A stretch of 64,000 bases of DNA from Nephromyces sp. MM_2019 (Eukaryota; Apicomplexa; Aconoidasida; Nephromycida): the NCBI GenBank assembly GCA_015657535.1, contig JADHZB010001199.1, positions 21,967-85,966 on the forward strand, read 5' to 3'. The position numbers and the translations under genes are program-made. The notes beneath the pieces are model-generated. The model was not told the DNA's origin, ran no database searches, and was given only the letters and a program-made list of their open reading frames with translations. Below are positions 30,898 through 64,000 of this stretch, in pieces. How positions within the stretch are numbered: position 1 is the stretch's first letter; each line of letters starts with the position of its first letter.

Positions 30898-33800
30898 TTA
30901 ACCCACATCCATATTCAATACATTCATAGAGCTCATCGATAAGGAAACGGCTTCATTCCGATCCTCATACCAATAACCACTAAGATCACAACCGGTTATA
31001 CACTTGCTCGCATTGACATCGTTACAATTATGCGAGCGATCTTCAGTAGCATGCATCGCTGGATCTTCAGCAAAAAAATTTCCGGCTATTAATCCAGCTG
31101 GGTTCGAATTTACACCCTCCCTCAAAAAGATTGAGCTGTGATGCTGGAAATTAGGCCTAGGCCTTTGGGAAGGAAAATTATTTGAATGTAAAGGAGGACT
31201 GTACAAATTCTGTCGGGTTGAATTCGATTGCACAGCGAAAGGCAGAGAATATCTTGAATCGCATTGAAATTCTTCGTGCACAAGCGAAGCATATGAAATC
31301 GCATTAAAGGGGGCAGCCATGGGAGCATTGTTTCCAGGAAAAGCGTACACAGAATTCCCCGGCTCGGGAAATAGCAATCCATGTTGAAAAAAATCTGGCG
31401 CGTCGGGCACAGATTGCTGTATTTTTTTCAATAACGGAGAGCCTAATACAATATCACTGCTACTGGAAGGATTTTTAAAAATAATACTCACATTCTCCAT
31501 ACTCTGAAGTTGTGTACATTGTGTTTCAGTGCTTGGACGACATTGCAAAGAAAGCGCATTACAAAAATCTGACGCTGGACAACTCATTGCTGATGAGAAT
31601 CCCGGTTCACATTCTAAGTTTAATGTCTCCCATATTTTTATAGCCGATTTTTCATACTTTGAAGCCACAGAAGCACTTTCTGAGGGAGCAGATTGCAAGC
31701 TTGGCATGGTTGAATCCATAGGTGGCTCATTACTATATCGAAAATTTACCGCCCGCCTCAAAGCTTCGGAGTACCCAAACTTTGCCACAGAAAAAGCCTT
31801 CGTCTTGTGCTTTATTATTTTCCCACTACTATCCCTCAAAGTGTACTTTGCTAACCAGAGCTTTGAGCTAGGCCTATACACTACACCTGAGAGTTGCATA
31901 GGAACAGAGTAAGTTATTTAATAATCCAAGATATTGAAATAATTACAGAAAAACGGGGTAGGGTGATTTAAGACACTTTGGGTGAAAAAGTGGACAAGCT
32001 GCTTGAAAAGTAAAAAAAACCAAAACTCCGATTCATACCTCATTCAAAAATAATAGAGGGATAAATAACGCTAAGAAAATCAAAGAGAAATAAAGAAAAA
32101 ACATCCTCGACAAGTTAATTTTTTACTATCCAAATTTTCTGCCTTGGCGTAGCATTCAAGCAATATAGCGTCTAATTTATCAGAAAAGGATTAGAAAAAA
32201 CTTGAGTATTTATAACAAGTATATTACTTGCTAATGCAACAATAAAAATATAAAATTCCCAATATGTGCAATATTATCGGCATTAACGAGAAATATTAAA
32301 GGCAATCCAATCACTAGTACGCACTCATTCTTTGCTGCTGTACCAAATTCATGTGGCTATAGCGAATACTTAATAAGTGAAAATTGAGAAGCTTAAAGGA
32401 AGTAGCACACCTTGTATTCCTGAAGAACAAGGCATACTTGTCACGCCATCACCGTAGGTATTTCGAAAATTTTTCTTGCCTATTATCCCAGTGGAAGGTT
32501 CTGCAGAACTCAGTGAATTTTGGTTTTCATCAATAAATATACTTGGATCATCAGAAAGCCAATCTTCGCATAATTTTTGTTGTAATGCAGCAGGAGTTTC
32601 ATTCACAGCGTTAGTTGTCTCCCTTGATTCTAAGTTAGGGTCCTCTGAAGTCCAGATATTTAAGCGTGAATGCAGCCATTTTAAAAGCCTTGCTAATTGA
32701 AAAGATTCATCAACACATATCCATTTTCTTATTAAAAAAAGAGAAGCTTGAAGCCTTGCAGGAACAGTACCACCATAATCTGATATCTGAAAATATCGCA
32801 AATATCTCAATGACTCATTCTGGAATAATTTCTTGACTCCCATGAGAGAAGCATCTTCTCCATATTCCTCTGCACCCTTTATAAAATTAAACATTTCCGC
32901 TTGCGCGAAGGGAAAGCTGCGGTCAGAGATGCGAGTCGAATCATCTTTGCTGAACAAATTTTGATGAGCCGGGTTCGCACTATTGGATTCATAAGCGCCA
33001 TCTATATAATCACTATGCACATATTCAACTACCCAAGCTTGTAAATGCTGACTATATTGAACTTCTGACTGGAAATGATTTAGAAACTTGTATAAAAGCT
33101 TCTGTATCCTCAGAGCAGCATTATCAAGCAATTTTGAATCCCTGCAGATGATATTAGAGTTCATTCCAGGATCTGCCGATTTTCCACAAAGCGTTTGGGA
33201 ACCAGTCCCGTGCATTTTCCTATGGAATTCTTCTTTTTTGTCGCTGATGGGCTCATTTATATCAGGAAAAACAATGACTGCTAGACTTTTTAGCTTCTTC
33301 CAAAGAATTAAGCCTTGAATAAATATATTAAAGTATCTTTCGCTCTTCTTATCCGCTCCTGTATTGTCACATGCCGACTTTAAGGCTTTGTATCCAAATG
33401 ATGAAGTGCATGGGCCATATGAATCATCATACTGGCTGATTCCTCCCTCATCAATGTAAGCAGAATCAGATTTTTCTTCGGAAGAAAACGGGACTGATGA
33501 AATCCTTGATGCTCGAGTATGCTCTGAATCCTTTCTATCGATATCGCACGACTGAAAGCAACATGTTTCCACCTGAGATTCACTATAAACATTCTTGGGA
33601 AGGCTCAAAGCGCTTTCAAAGAATTCGTCCTGAAAATTAGGACAAGCTTCATTTACGCCATTGGAACTACAGAAATTTCGTCCCCGTGAATTAAAGCATA
33701 TGTCTCTTTGATGCTCTTTTTCAGTTCTTTGATTCGAAGAAATAACGCTTCGATCATCTAGATTCCTAACTGTAACGTCAGCCTTTCTATGCAATTTCGC

Positions 33801-34505
33801 AACACCACAATTCTCCACATCTTTTCTTATGTTTATTGCCATGTTCTTAGCGCGATTAACACCATACTTAACCGTTGAAAATGCCTTAGTCTTCCGTTTT
33901 CCCTGCTGGTACCACTGAGCCATCCATGCGGATCTTGTGGGATTGAAGAATACCCCAGCTATAGGGCTTGTAAAATATTCTGGGTTAGTTAATTTCAGTG
34001 CGCACAATGTCATATCAGCTCTGGAATTGCACTTTGAATCTTCTTCTTTAGCAGAAACACTAGCTAAGTTAAAATTTTCATCTGGAAAGGTATCATCGTG
34101 CAAGTCTTGCTTATCAGCTACCCCGTGCATATCTTCGAATATATTGGCAAATCTTGCAGAATTCTCATCAGCCCCTAGTGAGTGCTCATCTTGAGTTGAA
34201 GAACTATCCGGAAAAGAATCGGTAGTTACGTGAGGCTGCACTTCACCCGCCTTGTATGCTTTGTTAGATTTAATAAATTGACCACTACGTTGACAGCACT
34301 TGTTAAAAACATAAAGCAAACCTCCATCAGTATCTTCTCTGAAGCGTACGGCTAAACTCTTGGCCTCTAACAAGCCATTTATTGCAGGAAAAATCTTGTA
34401 TCCTTCAGCGCCTTCTCCAGATCCATATGGAGTCTTCCAAGCCCTAATATACCTATCATAAACTACGCTCTTAAATCTGGACGCCGAGAACTGCTCCTTG
34501 GACAT
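30898..34505 (-). CDS. AP2-domain transcription factor (ApiAP2-like), 2 exons, 1027 aa
   Basis: Sequence-specific DNA-binding protein, presumably nuclear. Exon 1 is 34505-32411 and exon 2 is 31886-30898. The donor (AAG|GTGTGC) and acceptor (CTCAG|GTGTAG) split a Gly codon in phase 1, joining GIQ directly to GVVYRPSSKLWLAKY. Two clear AP2 domains carry the G-V-x-x-x-P-x-x-x-W core: GVFFNPTRSAWMAQWYQQGK with KTKAFSTVKYGVNRAKNMAI in exon 1, and GVVYRPSSKLWLAKYTLRDS with KTKAFSVAKFGYSEALRRAV in exon 2. Two degenerate AP2-like stretches also appear, near the N-terminus (YIRAWKTPYGSGEGAEGYKI) and near residue 500 (VQYSQHLQAWVVEYVHSDYI). The rest is low-complexity and Ser/Asn-rich, as is usual for ApiAP2 proteins. 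Without the splice, exon 1 would end after a few extra residues and the second AP2 domain would be orphaned. Confidence 0.85.
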
Positions 34506-53457: not shown

Positions 53458-55477
53458 TCACTGGGATTTCGCCATTTCACAAGCAGAAAGAAACCTTTCA
53501 CCTAGCGGAAAAAAAACTATGCCTTTTTTCTCAGCCATGTTAAGCAATTCTTTCACCTCAGAATGCATATTCAAATTATGAAATGCTACTATTGCATAGC
53601 TTAATGTCAAGCTATCAGGGCGTACTCCAAGTTTCTCCGCTCGTAGAGTCAGTAGTTCTGAATAAATTGCAAGGGACTCATGCCATTTACCAGCATTTAT
53701 ACATGCACCGATTGCACAGTTATATGCTTCAGTGGTTACACCTGAGACAAGAGCAAGAACAGCTTTAAATTTGACTTTAGCAAAATTCGGGCCGATATAT
53801 AAATACAAAAAATGTAGGCTTACAAAGCTTGAACAATGTTCCACATAAGCAAAAAAAAACTTCAATGCAGAGTATACTATAGAGGTTACCTTTTACACGC
53901 GTCAGCATACGCCTCAAAACTCGCAGAGCAGGTAACCACTCTCCACACTCCTTACAAGAATAGAGCACCATAAGATATGCTCGAGGATTTTTTAATGCGA
54001 AAACAGAGGATTCAAGTTCATTGAGAATCTCTATTGCTTTTCTCCACTGACCACAATTACTATAGCCTTCAATGCAATGCATGTAGGAAACTTCGTTGGG
54101 TAGAACATGAGGAACTGCAGCAAGCATAGCCTTCCATGTTTTTTCCAATCTTTTTTTGTCTTTTAACCTCGCTGAAATTCCTAAGACGATATTGAATGTG
54201 TTTAAATCAGGAGAATTATCCTCGTCTGATATTAGGTCGTTGAAGATACTATTAGATTCGTTCCAAAGCCCTGCAAGATCGCAAGCAATCAACAACTGGT
54301 TCGTAATACATAGATTAGTGCCAAAACCCCGTGAACGCATTTCATGATAGTACTTCAGAGCTTCCACAGCAAAACATGATTTCGCACACGCAAGCACGAC
54401 GTTGGCATAAGCAGAGTATGGAATACGCTCGATTAAAATATCCTTTCTCATTTCCTCAAACGCTTCAATAGCACCATGAGCCATGCCAAGTTTTTCTAAT
54501 GCGCTCAACAATATACCATAAGCCGTTACATCAGGATGCAATCCGGACTCCTTTAAGCTCTCAAAAAGTTGTAGCACAGTCCGGCTCATGTAGGCCTTTT
54601 CGCATGCGGACATAACAGCATGGTAGGTTATCAAATCAGGGTAAATTTTGTTTTCTGTCATTTCATGAAAAACTTTCATCGCTGTCTCCCCGTCCCCATT
54701 GCGCTCGTAAGCATTAAGCGCAGCATTATAAACCGCAGTGGCAGCGTCAATACCTGTAGGTAATTTAGCAGAGCGTGATCAGTTTCCTGAATCATATCAA
54801 CACCATAGGCCGGAAAATGGCCAAAAAAAACTAAAAAGGAATGTTAGGTACATCAAGATGCATCGTGAAAAATAACACCATACACTCAAAAAAAATATCA
54901 AGCCTAAAAAATATACTTCAGCAAGATGGTACAAAAAAATTAATACGAATAGAAAGTCAACTAAATTGCATGGTATTTATTACCCAAAATGAAAAGTATC
55001 GATAAGGGGAGCGGAATATATAAAAATCAATTCATAAGCGCAATTGCTTTGTAATCCATTATCTAACATACCTCCTGATTCCTGAGCTTCCACCAAGAGA
55101 CTTATAGCCTTTTGCCAATCCAAACCCAGAGGTTTAACATCTGAGCTTTCGCTGCCATGCTTACTGCCTTGAGGTAATTTCACACCTACCGGATTATCTT
55201 GTGATGCAGGCGTCGCATCAATATTTTCCCTCGGGTTATTATTACCAAATTCCTGGGAAGCCTTCCTTAGTGACTTTTCGTGATATGCACGGGTCCTCGG
55301 TATTAGCAAGGGAAGAGGACCGATTGTGTCGTAAGCAAGCCTTTTTAGATAAAATGCCGCAGGTAAAGCATGGAATGCTGGTGATGAGCGAATTGATGCA
55401 TGACATAAATTTTGAGGTAAGAGATGGATAGAGAAAACCAGCACGAAAAGCGCCTTGCAAGAAAAAGCTATTGACAT
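53458..55477 (-). CDS. Pentatricopeptide repeat (PPR) protein with probable plastid-targeting leader
   Basis: PPR proteins bind organelle RNA in a base-specific manner for processing, stability or translation. Exons are 55477-55072, 54753-53890 and 53741-53458, with GT-AG junctions each splitting a Gly codon in phase 1 (517 aa). At least nine or ten repeats of about 35 residues follow the V-T-Y-N-x-x-I/L-x-A-C-x-x-x-G pattern, for example DLITYHAVMSACEKAYM, DVTAYGILLSALEKLGMAHG, NEVSYMHCIEGYSNCGQWRK and TEAYNCAIGACINAGKWHES. The Met at 55477 opens a classic hydrophobic signal peptide (MSIAFSCKALFVLVFSIHLL) followed by an acid-free, Ser/Arg/His-containing stretch, the layout of two-part apicoplast leaders. 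An in-frame ATG at 55666 would add 63 basic residues and hide this leader. No extra catalytic domain (DYW, SMR) is seen. RNA target unknown. Confidence 0.85.
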
Positions 55478-59603: not shown

Positions 59604-62600
59604 TTAAGTTTCCAGACTGGACATAAATTCGTAGTAGTTTTTGAAGGCATCTTGGACTCTGTCTTCGTTTAGTCCTATATCGTTTAAAGAGTATGTATGT
59701 TTGATGTTCTTCGATCTTAGCTGTGTGCTTATTTCAACAAAGCTGGCCATTTTAGCAATTATATCACTATCTAAAGGAATATCAAAATGCTGATACACTT
59801 TTACGACAGTATTTATAGGGTTGCTAATTAAATCATTGTAATGGATATCGAGGAATTTCGTGGCCAGCTGAGGGTTCTCCTTCCTGAATTTCAAAGCTGA
59901 GTTTATCATGCTTGCCATTGCGCTTAGCTCGTCTCTCCCAATTTTTTCACAGTCCACATTGCTAAGTAAATTTTCTTGCGCCGTTCTGACTAGACTTCCC
60001 CAACTTCCTATTGTTTCCTTGGGGTCTCTGAACAAAAATAGAATTAATCTCATGTGGAAAAGGAAGCTTTCAGGAAAGTTTTAAGAGGATACCACTCTGC
60101 GACGCTAACTAGCACCTGGATTTAACTAGCGTGTAAAAAAATTCTTTACAATTTGTATAGCGGTACCTGTGAGTAAAGATAATCATGGCGTTTGGATAAG
60201 TCTCAAATAGCGCATCAAGCGTGAACAAGTGAAACGGCATTTTCAATAGCCACCTTCTCGTGCTTTTTTGCCATTGCAAGTGCTTGAGAAACCTCTCGTG
60301 AAATTTGTAGGCTTTTTTTAGTTCACTATAGTCATTTCGAAATAGCCATTCACGGTATGATGGTACCCCAAATTCAGCGCATATAGAATAAGAGCGACCG
60401 CAATGCTCCATTATAACAAAATCCTCTTCTGGGAGCTCTGCACTCTGCGCATGAATCCCTTCCCACGCATCTGAAAGGCCCATTTGGCTGTCAAGCACTT
60501 CTTGGGCCAAGGCGATTCTCGGATCCTGCACACAAATTAATCGCTTTGCAACTTGAATTCCATTGTGATATAATTTGGCTACAACGCATGTTAAATATGG
60601 TAGAGGCTTTTAGGCTTACCGCTTGGGGCGCTCCGACGGGAACAGTTGTGGAAATGAAGCTACTGTCAACTCCATATGGAGCCAGCATTTCGTAGTATGC
60701 TGCTGCACGATTATTGGCATCCTCGGCCAATAAACGCTGCAAGAAAGTCGTGCCGGAGCGATTAAGACCAACTATAATTATGGGATTTTTAACTGGGTTT
60801 TTTTCGATCTGTGGATGAATACGAGCCATTTCTTCCATATGCATTATATTCATGATATACTGTCTGAATGTACGATATATAGCGAGCTTTCCAGAAAAGG
60901 AAGGGTCACATTCTTGAGATAAGGAATTACTCAACAAGAGAATTGGCTCGAGAACAAAGTTTTCCTCGCCGATATAACTCAATCCAGTTAATCTTTTGGC
61001 ATCAGCCACTAAGTACTCAGCATCCATTTTTACCGACAGAGAGTCCTTAAAGAAAAAGTTCCTCTTTGTACTATATGGAAGAAAAGGTAAGAAATAAATT
61101 ATTGAGAAGGGATAAGCGATATCCTTTTTATTAATTTGACACGAATAATTAACTAACCTGTATAGCATGGTATTTTTAAAAATATCCCGTAGCGAGGGCC
61201 ACTCAATATCTGGAATCTCGTCGAATATATTTTGGTTTCTAATGGGGAATGCCTCAATGCTGTCTTCCCCAGTAGCTGCGTCAAACCAAAATTTTCTCCA
61301 ATATTGCATCAGAGGAATAAATTCAAATACAGGCGAAGAAGTACCCCGTTTCTTAATGGCAGCAATAAATTCGTCAAACGGCACTCCTTGATAGACAACT
61401 CCCAACTGTAAACTCCATGTCTCAATCATCTTCCTAAAAACACGAGTCGCGGAAAGCAGTTTATGCAAGCACAAAGGAACAACAAAAAAGATCTTACCTT
61501 TGAAGTACTCTTGGATCGAACAGGTGGTAAATATAATGGATTCTTTCTTCTTTCAGGGAAGCAGAAACCTGAAAGCAATAAACAGCAGGTGATATTTATC
61601 TAGGTTGCAGAGGCGATTATTAGTGCTCAACTCACCAGCATTTTGCAAACGACATCAATCGGGGTAAGAGGCGCTGAGGCAGTGCTGATCGGATATATCC
61701 CTTCTTGTACCGAGGACACTGTTAAAGCCGATGCATAATCACTAAAATTCGTATATCCGGTATCGTATGCCACATAAGTATTAGGTAGCCTATAAATAGT
61801 TAAAGGAAGCCCAAGTTCACGTGCATGCAGTAAAACCTGTTCTGCTGCCCATTTACTCCAAGGATAGCCTTGCAACTTGTAGTCAAAGATTTTTTCCATA
61901 TCAGATATCTCTGGGAAGCTATACTCATCTATTACATCATTTTCGTATCCACCGACGAATAACGCAAAAAAGGCAGGGAATTGACCTAGAGTGGAAACAA
62001 AATGAAGCCACTTCAGCTTCGAATTGGTGCAGAAATCTATTATGCTCATTACAGAGAGGGTGTTTGTTTGTCGAAGACGGCTGTAATTTTTCACTAGACT
62101 AACATCACCTCCTGTATGATAGACAATGTCTACTTCTTCAGCCAATTTTTGGTACTCTTCTTTTCCTATTCCAAAGTATGGAAGAGTCAAGTCTCCCACT
62201 AGAGGCACAATTCTATCCGTGAACGCGTCCTCCCAGCATTTAGCTACCTTGCACGCATCTACGATACGTTCCAAAGCATTTTCAACAGATTTAGCACGCA
62301 CGATGCAATACACCTTATCCAAGCGCGGATTTTCATGCCTTAACAAAGTTGCCAGTTGTACTCGCCCGACGAATCCAGTACATCCTGTTAGAAACGCATT
62401 TCTTATTTCACAAGCGCGAGCAGTTGGTAGAATTGAATCCAAATCAAATTTGATCGATTCCTTTAAGTTCTTGCAATCCTCAATAGGATGTGGTACAATC
62501 TCTTTTACTTTGCGAGGTAACTCTTGGCTGCCTCGGTTAGCATGAGCAAGTATGGCATTATCACTTTTCGCTGATTTAGCTTTAAGCTCCTCCCAAGCTT

Positions 62601-64000
62601 TCAAAAGAGCTTCATGGTCTTCACCGTAAATATGAAGCTTTTCAAGAGCACTTGGTATATCCTTTTCTGCAATCAGCGTGCTGAAAGTGGGATAAGCGTT
62701 ATTAAAGAAGTCAATATAAAATGTGAATTTTTCGGGTGGGTTTAATGAGCTCATAAGCCATCGATCCATAAAAAAGTCATTGCCTTCCTCCTGAGGTTTC
62801 TGTTCATGCGCCGACTTTCCATGGCATTCTGACACAACATACTTACAGATTTCATCTATACATGGATTCTCCATAAGCATCACTTGCGGAAGCTTAACAC
62901 CTGTGAGGTCCTCGATTGAATTTCTAAATTCTACAGCTCCCAAAGAATCTAAACCTAAATCAAGCATGGTCAACTTAACGTCTGGAGGGTCACGCAATCC
63001 ACTCACGCTTTGAGCCAGCTCAACAACGCGTGAAGTAATCTCCGATGGAGACATCGATGACACGTCACATCTTCTAGATACCTTCGCGAGACTACTCACC
63101 TTGATATTCGAAAAGAACGAAGGGATCTTTGAATATCGCTTAAAAAACGCTTTCCAAATAAACAGCTGGCAAGCAGAAATAGCAATATCGGGCGATGAAA
63201 AAATACCAGACGCCACTCTGAGCCCCAAATCATTACTTATTCCTCGAATTCCAAACTTTACTAGCTGTTGCTTTATATCTACTGCCATTCCCTGCTCTGT
63301 CCATGGTCCCCACTGGATACTCTGTCCTGCAAAACCCTGGGATCTTCTCCAATTTGCTAAAGCATCCAGACATGCATTTGCTGCTGCATAGTTCGATTGC
63401 CCGAAGTTACCTAGTAATGCTGACATAGATGAAAACATCATGAAGACATCAATTTGATTATTCAAATTCAATTCTTCACATACGCGGTGTAAGTTCCAAG
63501 CTCCTGATACCTTAGGCAGATACACCTCCTCTATTTTTTCCCTACTCTGATTCTCTATCGCTGCATCACTTGTTATTCCTGCAGCATGCAGGATTCCGCG
63601 CACTGGGGATAAATCAGAGCTTGTGATGTCTTTGAAGACCCTTAACACATCCTCATATTTCGATACATCACATTGTTTGTATACTATCTTCAAAGAGGAA
63701 TTTTCGCCATTTAACAACTTCCAAATATTGCTTTCCCTTACTTCCTCTGACGGTGCTGAACGACGAGACAGCAATACCAATGTCTTCACTCCTTCTTCAG
63801 CTAACCACTGTGTGAATACCAATCCAAGACCACCAGCACCTCCACTTACAACATAAGTTTTATCCTCCTCCATCTTTGTTACATCTTCATCCTGCATTAC
63901 TCCTCTTCGAGGCAAAAATGAAGGTATTTTTATCACCACTTTTCCAATATGTTGAGCGCGCTGCAAAAATCTAAATCCTGCAACACCACCCTCTTCTGCA
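59604..64000 (-). CDS. Type I polyketide/fatty acid synthase, C-terminal part: (ER)-KR-ACP-thioester reductase-sulfotransferase
   Basis: The gene enters from the right edge. Exons are 64000-61636, 61568-61498, 61433-61158, 61070-60620, 60525-60167 and 60027-59604, all GT-AG and in phase, for about 1,315 codons. Domain order: tail of an enoylreductase-like domain (AEEGGVAGFRF, QRAQHIGKVV); ketoreductase with SGGAGGLG cofactor site, LPKVSGAWN, FSSMSALLGNFGQ and SNYAAANACLDAL (Lys-Ser-Tyr-Asn); acyl carrier protein with DLGLDSLGAVEF (Ser near 62948); about 100 residues of linker; thioester reductase with TGCTGFVG (about 62385) and YPWSK; then a PAPS-dependent sulfotransferase with IIIVGLNRSGTTFLQRLL (5'-phosphosulfate loop), KMPFHLFTLDALF and THRDPKETIGSWGSL (3'-phosphate site). 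Terminal reductases release acyl-ACP as an aldehyde or alcohol. The sulfotransferase should then act on a hydroxyl (inference). There is no thioesterase. Upstream modules are outside the window. The fusion rests on five in-phase introns. Confidence 0.92.

Follow-up and report, generated by a model that had tools for sequence, protein, structure and literature searches.

A reductase-sulfotransferase ending on an apicomplexan type I synthase from Nephromyces, and a predicted route to long-chain alkyl sulfates

What would a sulfotransferase (ST) do at the very end of a type I synthase, behind a terminal reductase (R)? The question is raised by one end of the 64,000-nucleotide stretch of Nephromyces DNA analysed here (the window). 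An earlier note made from the sequence alone had read reductase exons that run in phase into an ST with both PAPS-binding motifs and then a stop, and had proposed a chain reduced to an alcohol and sulfated at its end.

The gene model bears out that first reading. On the minus strand from 63999 to 59604, six exons joined across five GT...AG introns give a single open frame of 1314 aa that closes on a TAA (59606-59604, minus strand), and the junctions proposed earlier (61433/61498, 61070/61158 and 60525/60620) are exact in the spliced model, which holds two further introns (Table 1). The contig (C616) stops at base 85966, where the window also ends, so the gene is truncated at its 5' side. A Pfam search of the spliced tail gave the order KR, ACP, R, ST, with Sulfotransfer_3 (PF13469) at residues 1000-1260 (E 3.7e-33) and no thioesterase (TE) match anywhere on the tail; the order is thus ACP-R-ST.

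Table 1. Features of the synthase tail, in window positions
Feature	Position	Strand	Basis
Exon 1: end of ER, KR, ACP, R Rossmann part; truncated by contig end	61636..63999	-	open frame, spliced model, Pfam
Exon 2	61498..61568	-	spliced model; intron positions match C224 copy
Exon 3	61158..61433	-	spliced model; C224 copy
Exon 4: ST N-terminal helices and 5'-PSB loop	60620..61070	-	spliced model; C224 copy
Exon 5: ST middle, KMPFH	60167..60525	-	spliced model; C224 copy
Exon 6: ST end and TAA stop	59604..60027	-	open frame, spliced model
Introns	61635-61569, 61497-61434, 61157-61071, 60619-60526, 60166-60028	-	all GT-AG
KR, PF08659 (residues 48-235 of tail)	63295..63858	-	Pfam E 3.2e-58
ACP, PF00550 PP-binding, LGLDSLGAVEF (residues 324-388)	62836..63030	-	Pfam E 1.4e-11
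R NAD(P)-binding part, PF07993 NAD_binding_4; GCTGFVGR, STLGQFP, GYPWSK (residues 537-787)	61639..62391	-	Pfam E 9.9e-54
R C-terminal part and R-ST linker, split by introns 61635-61569 and 61497-61434	61160..61638	-	spliced model; conserved in homologues
ST and N-terminal extension, 411 aa, with introns 61157-61071, 60619-60526 and 60166-60028	59607..61159	-	PF13469, PDB 2zq5
5'-PSB loop GLNRSGTT	60746..60769	-	alignment motif
KMPFH (KxPxH)	60229..60243	-	alignment motif
3'-PB motif HRDP, split by intron 60166-60028	60018..60168	-	alignment motif

By alignment the reductase conserves GxTGFxGR, the Ser motif and GYPWSK, and the SDR Tyr-Lys motif of MxaA-type reductases is present. The ST has the 5'-PSB loop, 3'-PB motif and KxPxH features of PAPS-dependent enzymes: we take GLNRSGTT to be the PAPS phosphosulfate loop and KMPFH, by analogy, to hold the proposed catalytic His/Lys, and HRDP presumably fills the 3'-PB role. 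Among PDB sequences the nearest solved relatives of the ST are STF1 (2zq5, E 7.3e-37) and STF9 (2z6v, E 4.3e-31), and a profile of 20 relatives, with the window protein excluded, found MxaA R and STF1 as nearest. The predicted model of a Cardiosporidium homologue (P0001) places its R part nearest to the solved MxaA R folds (4w4t/4u7w) and its ST part nearest to STF1/STF9, so that an MxaA-like fold is seen for relatives. Furthermore, the assembly has ATP-sulfurylase and APS-kinase matches, that is PAPS-synthesis domains, on two contigs (C700 and C437).

The assembly gave matches to just two R domains, one in the window and one on contig C224, with an ST behind each. When spliced, the C224 copy has its five introns at identical alignment columns and phases, among them the introns within the ST and the R-ST linker, at 56% identity to the window copy in R and 52% in ST. 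It reads GLNRSGTS in place of GLNRSGTT, and both copies retain KMPFH and HRDP; PF13469 picked up both STs, PF00685 the window ST alone.

Duplication of this kind extends beyond the tail. Six gene kinds are present twice, as one copy of higher and one of lower codon GC3: the R-ST tail (C616 0.39, C224 0.28), a KS-DH fragment (C739 0.38, C9 0.29), APS kinase (C700 0.39, C437 0.15), ATP sulfurylase (C700 0.43, C437 0.22), ribosomal protein L15e (C740 0.49, C222 0.32) and an AT-like gene (C788 0.39, C987 0.32). Two more KS matches are also unlike in GC3 (C1028 0.46, C715 0.34). Codon GC3 was chosen for pairing contigs because raw GC is unreliable for this purpose, C616 alone spanning 0.30 to 0.44. 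From these pairs we infer that two species were assembled together, or that the genome is duplicated, each set carrying one R-ST synthase. Elsewhere in the window, two of eight scanned ORFs encode AP2-domain proteins (30898-31899 and 32370-34505, minus strand), which we take to fit an apicomplexan origin of this DNA, and a PPR-repeat protein lies at 53777-54679 (minus strand).

The front of the synthase is found on C9 and C739, which run off contig ends and carry an AMP-binding acyl-ligase end, ACP, KS, AT and DH, with the ACP preceding the KS; the acyl-ligase-end matches lie under the Pfam cut-off (25.3 and 26.0 versus 29.9 bits). The start of the ER gives a Pfam match on C9, and its motif can also be read on C739. 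By likeness to a relative, P0005, the tails on C616 and C224 begin at the ER end; a PF13602 search of the assembly gave no ER middle part. By codon GC3 and gene order, C739 would pair with C616 and C9 with C224, the ER middle being missing, and the domain plan would be AL-ACP-KS-AT-DH-ER-KR-ACP-R-ST in one module. With one type I KS found per synthase half in an assembly that breaks within the ER, the synthase appears to be mono-modular.

The KS domains of C9 and C739 keep DTACSSS, HGTGT and NIGH, with DPQQR present, and the DH motif HxxxGxxxxP is retained in both translations. The AT active site GHSxGE is absent: the two type I ATs found read GVGVGE (C9, L021) and GVGIGE (C739, L022), so that the catalytic Ser is gone in both, and the GQGSQ motif is lost as well. 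For comparison, the relative P0015 reads GHSLGE. Because both motifs are lost, the AT should be dead in both copies. Together with a mono-modular plan, this means that malonyl supplied in trans, or no elongation at all, has to be considered; AT-like proteins encoded away from the synthases, on C987 and C788, could be candidates for loading malonyl in trans.

A large protein search matched the R-ST query to 36 proteins. Fifteen are alveolate-type proteins with both PF07993 and PF13469 that align over 95-99% of the query, the named species among them being Cardiosporidium cionae, Eimeria acervulina, E. maxima, Cyclospora cayetanensis, Vitrella brassicaformis and Gregarina niphandrodes; the others are four Cryptosporidium proteins without a called ST, two bacterial-type R-ST proteins and 15 R proteins without ST. 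Single ORFs span R and ST in, for instance, P0002, P0005 and P0010, relatives with accessions of a style that we take to be that of transcript assemblies. Since the C224 copy shares the introns and 15 relatives align over the R-ST query, the fusion is not due to chance; with the single spliced frame, this supports one gene rather than two, as the earlier note had it.

All four catalytic motif patterns are passed by 10 of the 15 relatives; P0007 misses one through a gap and P0012 has GF for GY. The loop and KxPFH patterns are failed by the remaining three, P0008 (Vitrella), P0014 and P0015, which have altered ST motifs (e.g. LNMPFQ for LKMPFH in P0008). Hence ST function is not universal among the relatives, and lineages such as these may be further cases of sulfation being lost.

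The earlier note was aware of no described R-ST fusion, which does not hold. In 2013 PMC3908369 described SwfB, from the swf operon of sponge symbionts, as R plus ST, mentioned the same ending in two type I FAS of coccidia, called multimodular, and proposed a primary sulfate, itself an inference for SwfB there too; no new metabolite appeared when the swf cluster was expressed in E. coli BAP1 (PMC3908369). Hence neither the R-ST ending nor the alkyl-sulfate reading is new. What may be new here is the R-ST ending in more of the group, the grouping of the reductases in a tree and an apparently decayed ST in Cryptosporidium, though reports later than 2013 may have been missed. In the accessible literature, which is incomplete after 2013, no enzyme or metabolite data were found for any R-ST protein.

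A SwfB-like protein (P0020) matches the window R-ST along its full length, R then ST, at 32% identity over 99% of the query, and in both the two domains are contiguous in one polypeptide. When P0020 was scanned against genome contigs it found 34 loci, all in records titled bacterial MAGs, with a same-strand KS ORF in the fetched stretch of 28; a contig end lies at most 1.7 kb from the R-ST start in five of the remaining six. Among the 120 bacterial-type proteins listed, from at least 588 matches, 96 pass all four motif patterns. The order swfA-swfB-swfC (radical SAM) was seen in one fetched locus, L047, and an opposite-strand radical SAM gene in L030; these proteins (L047:12494-14248 and L030:12686-14467), which adjoin the R-ST gene, have B12-binding and DUF4070 domains.

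The operon differs from the alveolate gene in that SwfB is a free-standing ORF beside swfA, whereas here R-ST is fused in frame behind KR-ACP. The synthases themselves differ too. In all four usable SwfA rows (L030 being ignored as an antisense ORF and L041 lost to the length filter) the KS reads HATGT and [DE]PQ[IV]R, against HGTGT and DPQQR in C9 and C739, and bacterial and alveolate KS share 32-36% identity. The same four rows have GHSSGE and hence an AT nucleophile, unlike C9 and C739, and a Pfam scan of one SwfA gave no acyl ligase. Since the KS differ, the R-ST pair travels with different synthases, and for the same reason we rejected the view of the alveolate gene as a mere fusion of the swf operon.

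The reductases nevertheless belong together. In a midpoint-rooted tree of 40 R rows, 17 alveolate-type and nine SwfB-like sequences fall on one side of a branch with support 100/100, against 14 other R (mostly NRPS-type, one fungal) that include several long branches; the tree took in 13 of the 15 R-ST relatives, two of the four Cryptosporidium proteins and nine of the 120 listed bacterial ones. The alveolate R form one group by themselves in 62% of bootstrap trees, and P0012 is left unplaced. Both assembly copies group with the Cardiosporidium R (99/94), and the C224 copy is its sister (98/83). The Cryptosporidium R lies within the alveolate group and adjoins two ST-bearing rows (98/94), and the missing ST in that genus is for this reason better read as a loss.

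CpFAS1 of C. parvum is described as loaded by an acyl ligase, with three modules and R at its C-terminus, and its R as preferring very-long-chain acyl thioesters, with products that were not detected (PMC2995488); the word 'sulfotransferase' is absent from the available text of that paper. Yet in FAS from four Cryptosporidium species other than C. parvum (P0016-P0019) the last 308-365 residues are apparently a decayed ST without the PAPS loop. Aligned with the alveolate ST profile in hhalign, this tail gave E 1.1e-10 and a score of 57.7, where the best of 40 column shuffles reached 9.9, a signal that hangs on the R-proximal columns (E 1.6e-4 with 40 cut; no signal, E 0.38, with 80 cut). There was no match to the bacterial SwfB ST profile (E 0.72). 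In block scans, which were designed after the likeness had been noticed by eye, the 3'-PB block was found in all four tails, with 0-1 of 2000 within-tail shuffles as good. The GK..RQ..N block is weaker (2, 10, 15 and 61 of 2000 shuffles as good; weak in P0016). The two blocks lie at offsets of 230-244 (3'-PB) and 63-69 (GK..RQ..N), close to the ST spacing, and neither block score was reached by any of 2000 stretches taken from other proteins (P0022-P0035). In none of the four tails was the 5'-PSB (PAPS loop) block above chance, 223-598 of 2000 shuffles scoring as well, and in KMPFH the Lys is altered. Foldseek/VIA matches of the Cryptosporidium model were filled by the R domain and are uninformative for the ST. 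If right, this gives an origin for the C-terminal stretch of Cryptosporidium FAS1, which the available text of PMC2995488 does not discuss.

Collectively, the tail is most likely where an apicomplexan type I fatty-acid or polyketide synthase releases and caps its chain. The chain would probably be a fatty acid loaded by an N-terminal acyl ligase, a view supported by the resemblance of the acyl-ligase end, ACP, KS, AT and DH of C9 and C739 to the CpFAS1 plan in the available part of PMC2995488. With the AT nucleophile lost, the single module would extend it little or not at all unless malonyl came in trans. R would then take the acyl chain off the ACP and, with NAD(P)H as reductant, convert it to a primary alcohol, most likely through two hydride transfers, and the adjoining ST would move sulfate from PAPS onto the new hydroxyl to give a long-chain 1-alkyl sulfate. 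MxaA R carries out four-electron chemistry; reduction to the alcohol is proposed because R is kin to MxaA and an ST needs a hydroxyl.

We put the conversion of acyl-ACP to the alcohol and on to a long-chain 1-alkyl sulfate at a probability of roughly 0.6. It is supported by the intact motifs, the C224 copy, the 15 relatives, the PAPS-synthesis domains and the lack of a thioesterase match on the tail, and by the grouping of R with that of SwfB, whose authors suggested the same product (PMC3908369, available part). The earlier note's domain order, single gene and alkyl sulfate as simplest product have thus stood; its claim of novelty has not, and it missed the apparently mono-modular plan and the AT loss.

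A wider proposal is tentative, with the odds against it: apicomplexans and chromerids may have alkyl sulfates as a lipid class that is ancestral to them and has gone unrecognised. Here a synthase of one module would make them by activating a fatty acid that already exists; unable to charge malonyl itself, as its AT has no nucleophile, it would free the chain as a reduced and sulfated lipid. Cryptosporidium would have lost sulfation and kept a dead ST. If this is right, much of the parasite phylum makes a lipid class that would escape standard lipid work-ups, a point raised for sponges in PMC3908369. A single step from acyl thioester, NAD(P)H and PAPS to alkyl sulfate would, if right, reveal the product of such synthases.

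An unlikely alternative, though the one to be taken most seriously, is that the ST sulfates another hydroxyl (e.g. beta- or omega-) on the ACP-bound chain and that R then frees an aldehyde or alcohol that is not 1-O-sulfated. Iterative synthases may skip reducing domains and curacin sulfation acts on a beta-hydroxyacyl-ACP (PMC3908369, available part), but here the ST comes after R and not between ACP and R, the nearest solved relatives, STF1 and STF9, stand alone, and the DH motif is kept. Slightly less likely is an ST that survives as a remnant with a structural or regulatory role and transfers no sulfate, the product being a free alcohol or aldehyde. The Cryptosporidium tails, with ST blocks but no PAPS loop, and the three relatives that fail the loop and KxPFH patterns are precedents for such decay; against this, every motif is kept in both assembly copies and in 10 of 15 relatives, and the PAPS-synthesis domains are present. 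An ST embedded in a synthase also recalls curacin and olefin synthase chemistry, with sulfate as the leaving group for a terminal alkene, which we rejected as highly improbable since there is no TE match on the tail, R stands where the TE would be in a different order, and R would take away the carboxyl needed for decarboxylation. Equally improbable, and rejected, is a separate ST gene mis-spliced to the synthase: introns do lie in and near the R-ST linker, but the C224 copy has the same junctions and phases, and R-ST is a single ORF in P0002, P0005, P0010 and the bacteria.

The R-ST ending can finally be set against the systems it resembles. CurM and the olefin synthases have the order ACP-ST-TE, coupled to decarboxylation. 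They share with the window a PAPS-type ST within a type I synthase, and differ from its ACP-R-ST order with no TE match. In MxaA (4u7w, 4w4t) R is terminal, whereas in the window an ST lies behind it; the mycobacterial STF1 and STF9 (2zq5, 2z6v) are like the window ST in sequence and differ as stand-alone enzymes. Cryptosporidium FAS1 shares a terminal R behind KR-ACP, with the R in the same tree group, and differs in the three modules described for CpFAS1 (PMC2995488, available part) and in an ST that looks decayed, whereas the window copy has intact ST motifs. The coccidian FAS (Eimeria and Cyclospora models P0003, P0004 and P0007) have the same ACP-R-ST ending at 50-55% identity; two coccidian type I FAS are called multimodular in PMC3908369, whereas each synthase half here yielded a single KS.
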